Below are positions 13,353-47,962 of a stretch of 64,000 nucleotides of DNA, in pieces. The DNA is from Sinotaia quadrata (Eukaryota > Mollusca > Gastropoda > Architaenioglossa > Viviparidae), in the NCBI GenBank assembly GCA_028829895.1, contig CM054180.1, positions 114,933,135 through 114,997,134 on the forward strand, written 5' to 3'. Every line of letters starts with the position of its first letter. The first letter of the stretch is position 1. The position numbers and the translations under genes were made by a program. Under the pieces are notes generated by a model. That model saw only the letters and a list, made by a program, of their open reading frames with translations. It was not told the DNA's origin and did not search any database.

Positions 13353-13358
13353 TTTATT
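13353..13358 (-). promoter_or_regulatory. Poly(A) signal AATAAA overlapping gene B stop
   Basis: On the minus strand the end reads GAA TAA ATA, so AATAAA overlaps the stop codon. If used, the 3' UTR would be very short; other AATAAA motifs occur further down, for example near 12507. Confidence 0.3.

Positions 13359-47962: not shown

Follow-up and report, generated by a model that had tools for sequence, protein, structure and literature searches.

We found that gene B, on the minus strand of a 64,000-nucleotide stretch of the Sinotaia quadrata genome (the window, C4:114933135-114997134; the genome has 984 Mb in 26 contigs), is probably a separate, intact and membrane-anchored member of an RPTP cluster that acts as a non-catalytic decoy or co-receptor, similar in kind to FGFRL1 (probability about 0.6). 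Its sequence is best read as that of a duplicated RPTP from which the catalytic half has gone, while the large surface ectodomain was retained. Gene names (A, A1-A3, B, C, D, E1 and E2) are labels given in this analysis.

Exon model and protein of gene B

In the curated exon model, gene B runs from 47962 to 13354 and joins 46 exons in one frame of 7,002 nt, which comprises 2,333 codons and ends in one stop. All 45 introns are GT-AG, and no disabling change was found across the frame. The initial annotation had described 46 exons in one frame and 2331 residues, so the exon number was recovered and the length differs by two residues. The first prediction was made by a motif-free exon-chaining script trained on the long minus-strand ORFs of the window. 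It recovered exons from each of the seven repeat units, and the terminal exon exactly; compared with it, 34 of the 46 final exons are identical and 42 overlap, whereas 16 of the 58 predicted exons were not retained in the final model. During curation, exons with family motifs received a bonus, five small exons were dropped and four boundaries were set by hand, so that the agreement in exon count with the initial annotation is not fully independent, least of all in the N-terminal third. Exon 1 was missed by the first prediction and is the sole candidate of its kind in the 3.2 kb upstream of exon 2. Weak donors were found at exon 45 (AAC/GTACAC, score -2.8), exon 5 (-2.2) and exon 16 (-1.2), and a weak acceptor at exon 44 (-1.4). 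The features of gene B are as follows (window positions, with the source of each assignment in brackets).

47890..47962, minus strand: exon 1, start codon and signal-peptide-like segment of 24 residues (exon model)
40992..47283, minus strand: exons 2-9, three pairs of small cysteine-rich modules and short linker exons (BLASTP of ORFs)
37651..40692, minus strand: exons 10-14, Thr/Ser-rich linker exons (exon model)
34522..37298, minus strand: unit 1, FN3a (two exons) and FN3b (unit search, exon model, Pfam)
31054..32973, minus strand: unit 2, FN3a and FN3b (unit search, exon model)
28708..30128, minus strand: unit 3, FN3a and FN3b (unit search, exon model)
25042..26935, minus strand: unit 4, FN3a and FN3b (unit search, exon model, DNA identity to unit 5)
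22651..24465, minus strand: unit 5, FN3a and FN3b (unit search, exon model, DNA identity to unit 4)
19751..21998, minus strand: unit 6, FN3a and FN3b (unit search, exon model)
16662..18256, minus strand: unit 7, FN3a and FN3b (unit search, exon model)
15048..16108, minus strand: exons 44-45, FN3c and first part of FN3d (homology to FN3c/d of A)
13354..14322, minus strand: exon 46, rest of FN3d, Fn3_PTPRU domain, stalk, transmembrane helix, tail of about 52 residues and stop (homology, Pfam, fold model)
13353..13358, minus strand: AATAAA hexamer overlapping the stop codon, possible polyadenylation signal (sequence only)

The encoded protein starts with a signal-like N terminus, which is followed by the three cysteine-rich pairs, the Thr/Ser linkers, seven FN3a/FN3b units, FN3c, FN3d, an Fn3_PTPRU domain, a stalk, one transmembrane helix and the tail. 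The cysteine-rich modules are encoded by 72-nt and 96-nt exons and had no match in Pfam. Within each unit, FN3a is spread over two exons and FN3b occupies one. FN3b matches Pfam fn3 strongly, and FN3a of unit 4, when tested alone, reached 18.8 bits against a cut-off of 25, so the FN3a assignment is tentative. N-X-S/T sequons are far more numerous than expected (B has 96, whereas 200 shuffled versions averaged 40 and never exceeded 54). With this composition, B would be a large, sequon-rich type I membrane protein without a phosphatase (PTP) domain.

The last exon of B is homologous to the FN3/transmembrane/phosphatase exon of A (35% identity over 209 aa, E 6.5e-32), and the two exons before it are homologous to FN3c/d of A (E 1.5e-14 and 3.4e-8). 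The membrane-proximal ectodomain is of RPTP type, with an Fn3_PTPRU match of 34.9 bits (cut-off 24.7). The most hydrophobic stretch of the protein covers residues 2260-2280 (hydropathy 3.8), where the fold model also has a long helix, and it leaves about 52 residues behind it. Both the homology and the stop 52 residues past the membrane had been proposed in the initial annotation. PTPRM is the best PDB match of this exon by sequence (E 2.5e-8), and the predicted fold has its best PDB match in FN3-4 of human PTPRM (E 6.6e-8), with a TM-score of only 0.34-0.46. Mean pLDDT of the model, built on an alignment of six sequences, is 66; the ectodomain blocks mostly have values of 69-92 and the tail is below 50.

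The tail might be a shortened ancestral juxtamembrane region. The alignment was suggestive, but 103 to 471 of 500 shuffles scored equally against six relatives and this candidate was rejected; no relationship between the tail and the juxtamembrane regions of the relatives could be detected from sequence. An improbable alternative for the function of B is that it signals or is trafficked independently through its tail and tyrosines, and is not a regulator of the phosphatase paralogues. Three tyrosines lie at or after the membrane edge (2283, 2299 and 2329), the last of them in YTLM, which together with a Glu forms the C-terminus, and the first half of FN3a has changed faster than FN3b, as a binding surface might. 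However, the tail is predicted to be disordered in the fold model, no signalling domain was matched in B by Pfam, and the faster exon may simply be less constrained. YTLM fits the generic YxxPhi sorting and YxxM patterns; a motif of this length often arises by chance.

Other parts of the window were also inspected. Tandem-repeat arrays with units of 17-163 bp occupy 1269-12231 and 43720-44162, and several long ORFs overlap them. Plus-strand ORFs at 2629-3009, 3113-3508 and 7735-8520 were rejected as genes (overlap with tandem repeats, no match above the Pfam cut-off), as were the plus-strand ORF at 49878-50291 (no Pfam match, partial overlap with a CA repeat) and the minus-strand ORF at 43717-44244, which is a 51-bp repeat.

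Probable loss of the phosphatase domain within a tandem RPTP cluster

The exon of A that is homologous to the last exon of B runs on into PTP D1, and the frame of B stops. RPTPs carry one or two cytoplasmic PTP domains, and none was found in B by Pfam, tblastn or HMM search. The 22 kb between the stop of B and the transmembrane exon of C (from 13353 to 8.9 kb past the left end of the window) yielded no PTP by tblastn at E up to 5, and a PTP HMM search of its six-frame ORFs of at least 20 aa returned five matches, none of which is credible (best E 3.4). As controls, the PTP HMMs matched the degenerate domains of C (1.2e-16 and 7.2e-17) and the domains of A (5.7e-37 and 9.4e-43). A premature stop with PTP remnants behind B is not supported by these searches. 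A hidden splice out of exon 46 is conceivable but likewise without support, the best donor after the membrane segment being AAA/GTAAAT at 13451 (score -0.36).

Across the genome, Fn3_PTPRU was found at no fewer than 10 loci; at 9 or more of these, PTP hits lie within 25 kb in the same orientation, and at B there are none. Both searches score the best candidates only, so that these counts are lower bounds. The PTP association of C was also supported by tblastn. The PTP search also turned up numerous exon matches on C2 and C5, frequently packed close together, and these point to further large PTP expansions elsewhere in this genome.

B had been paired with a single neighbouring RPTP in the initial annotation. 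This picture has to be widened, as the cluster has at least nine members, among which catalytic decay is common. On the minus strand, the order in the direction of transcription is A3, A2, A1, A, B, C and D, and E1 and E2 lie on the plus strand. The 3' part of neighbour A and the D1 motifs of the seven phosphatase-carrying members, with exons assigned by position, are listed below.

54955..62550, minus strand: 3' part of A, FN3d/Fn3_PTPRU/transmembrane/PTP D1 exon and further D1 and D2 exons (homology, Pfam)
A, D1: HCGTGVSRSG, WPE
E1, D1: HCGSGIARTG, WPE
E2, D1: HCGTGVSRTA, WPA
A1, D1: HCKTGTSFTA, WPQ
A2, D1: HCTTGTSFTA, WPQ
A3, D1: HCKTGTSFTA, WPK
C, D1: VQSMKDDGRVG, WPT

Cys-x5-Arg is kept in the D1 of three of the seven members, the catalytic Cys or Arg is gone from the other four, and WPD is present in none. 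A was previously described as a real RPTP. Its structure agrees with this description (two PTP domains, Cys-x5-Arg kept), but WPE replaces WPD, so A is an RPTP by structure and its activity is not established. The database relative P0007 also has WPE in D1 (with HCGTGVSRTA), so an early origin of WPE in this family is possible. According to the excerpt of PMC7320164, WPE goes with a dead D1 in PTPRU, and turnover of PTPRK falls about 115-fold when it carries this substitution.

A1, A2 and A3 are close paralogues (C4:115017000-115138000) with the D1 loop HC[KT]TGTSFTA, and the replacement of the catalytic Arg by Phe makes them look like pseudophosphatases. Gene C (C4:114906900-114930900, left of the window) has a short ectodomain, a transmembrane exon and two degenerate PTP domains; its D1 has VQSMKDDGRVG in place of the family pattern VHC..G..R and therefore no catalytic Cys. 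At motif level, C, A1, A2 and A3 are all of pseudophosphatase type. One of the introns of C harbours a retroelement carrying pol-like open frames. In gene D (C4:114867000-114898200), the cysteine-rich modules are followed by FN3c and an incomplete FN3d, where the frame ends at VEQSDLSLP before the membrane-proximal domain; neither a transmembrane segment nor a PTP was matched in the 13 kb past this stop, and D may be a secreted member or a pseudogene. By BLASTP of ORFs, cysteine-rich modules are also present upstream of A, A1, C and D.

B and C might alternatively be one alternatively spliced locus, in which some transcripts end at exon 46 and others continue from unit 7 into the FN3c, transmembrane and PTP exons of C. 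The two are on the same strand, with the FN3c exon of C about 21 kb downstream, and exon 43 of B and that exon are both phase 1, so exons 44-46 could be bypassed in frame. C also has no FN3a/b unit at E <0.01 and only two weak candidates for a signal exon, none convincing. The scan for signal exons of A, C and D gave 2, 2 and 3 candidates, all weak. Against such splicing, a full 3' set belongs to B itself, and C has cysteine-rich exons of its own which carry splice sites and correspond to the N-terminal modules of B and A, which leaves no need to attribute the phosphatase exons of C to B. We consider a shared locus unlikely; even then, a long form could not be called a canonical phosphatase, since D1 of C has lost the catalytic Cys.

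Repeat gain, convertase-type site and constraint

The initial annotation was probably right that the catalytic half was lost, as far as sequence can tell, but the ectodomain was not merely kept. One FN3a/b unit was found in A, one in A1 and seven in B, and B also has no convertase-type site, which A has. The seven units of B cluster together under midpoint rooting (support 94/92, just under the 95/80 mark), and units 4 and 5 share 84% DNA identity over 1,606 columns, introns included. Units 4-6 (window 19751-26935) are recent copies.

A convertase-type basic site is present in the Fn3_PTPRU domain of 11 of the 13 aligned rows and absent only from B and C; because A1-A3 and E2/P0004 are close relatives, the number of independent cases is smaller. 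Such a site in the membrane-proximal domain marks R2-type RPTPs, and B does not have it. B and C are long branches, and the tree does not resolve the position of B, so the order in which the convertase site, catalysis and the domain were lost cannot be read from it.

dN/dS was computable for 18 of the 21 pairs of B units, with values of 0.15-0.50, and dS was saturated in the other three. The three most recent pairs have values of 0.41, 0.44 and 0.50. Since dS is above 1 in many pairs and exchange between repeats within the gene is possible, these ratios may reflect constraint before the loss. In unit pairs 4/5, 4/6 and 5/6, dN/dS of the first FN3a exon is 0.48, 0.60 and 0.86, compared with 0.16, 0.50 and 0.25 for FN3b; this faster change could reflect either a binding surface or lower constraint.

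These values bear on whether B is a decaying copy, in which the phosphatase was lost recently and the remainder is drifting. Some splice sites are weak, the neighbours C and D are eroded too, and the long branch of B could reflect relaxation. However, all 2,333 codons are open, which makes recent decay less likely, sequons are in excess, dN/dS is at most 0.50 even in the most recent pairs, and PTP remnants, still visible in C, were not seen behind B. Decay is thus rather improbable, and a retained non-catalytic receptor is preferred.

Known systems and the biology of the cluster

When orthologues were sought, the last exon of B gave no match among 1,953 candidates at E up to 0.001. In the control, the exon of A gave 26 matches among 4,865 candidates, of which four were close, each of these carrying a PTP. 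A profile search at E up to 1e-6 retrieved these four close relatives of the exon of A and SUSD1 (P0029). SUSD1 (sushi domain containing 1) resembles B in having Fn3_PTPRU without a PTP domain, but has EGF and sushi domains and no FN3 array (precomputed Pfam). R2B-type RPTPs (PTPRM, PTPRK, PTPRT and PTPRU) share the membrane-proximal Fn3_PTPRU domain with B but differ in having two PTP domains; in B neither a PTP nor a convertase-type site was found, and its ectodomain combines the cysteine-rich modules with about 17 FN3-like domains. Their ectodomains consist of MAM, Ig and four FN3 domains (excerpt of PMC10815196).

Pseudophosphatase RPTPs such as PTPRU and PTPRN are, like B, RPTP-type receptors without catalysis. 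They keep the intracellular PTP fold, which neither Pfam nor HMM search found in B; C, A1, A2 and A3 fit this class better. PTPRU, with WPE, is described as inactive and may act by competing for substrates (excerpt of PMC7320164). RPTP ectodomains without phosphatase are already known as splice forms, and Fn3_PTPRU without phosphatase is known from SUSD1. Phosphacan is a secreted RPTP isoform without phosphatase. Similarly, sPTPRJ is an RPTP ectodomain without phosphatase that arises as a splice form (excerpt of PMC10815196). Both come from PTP-encoding genes and have no anchor, whereas the anchor of B is encoded in a terminal exon belonging to B itself, and no PTP exon was found between its stop and gene C.

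FGFRL1 is the closest in kind. Like B, it is a paralogue of an enzymatic receptor with a similar ectodomain, a transmembrane helix and a short enzyme-less tail, and B resembles this class in being an anchored paralogue with a short tail. FGFRL1 belongs to a receptor kinase family with known ligands and has knock-out phenotypes, whereas B is known from sequence alone. The excerpt of PMC12026108 describes FGFRL1 as kinase-less and first viewed as a decoy, with a tyrosine-based tail motif that guides its trafficking. By analogy, non-catalytic B would share ligands or adhesion partners with its PTP-bearing paralogues, and would limit or organise them by competing or partnering; its tail could serve trafficking or adaptor binding through the last tyrosine (YTLM). 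Sequence shows the domain layout of B, its descent from the cluster, the gain of FN3 units relative to A, and the absence of a convertase-type site and of any PTP sequence found in the 22 kb behind it; expression, surface location, the shared ligand and any role of the tail are inferred. A separate, anchored PTP-less gene in an RPTP cluster beside intermediate stages appears to be new; no RPTP gene lacking its phosphatase domain came up in the titles and abstract starts of the open-licence papers listed.

More speculatively, and with a low probability, the cluster may be a recognition array resembling paired receptors, with related outer domains and graded outputs, from candidate phosphatases (A, E1 and E2) through pseudophosphatases (A1-A3 and C) to no enzyme at all (B), and perhaps without membrane anchor in gene D. 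B, which has no enzyme and the largest outer part, might then be a recognition specialist or sponge that tunes phosphotyrosine signalling through dosage instead of catalysis. The enzyme half is what defines RPTPs. If the preferred reading of B as a non-catalytic decoy or co-receptor is true, an anchored RPTP paralogue without enzyme would be the phosphatase counterpart of FGFRL1, found beside siblings in the middle of catalytic loss. This single locus would then be a place to study whether the outer domains of RPTPs can function in the absence of catalysis, and the order of loss of convertase cleavage, catalysis and the entire domain.
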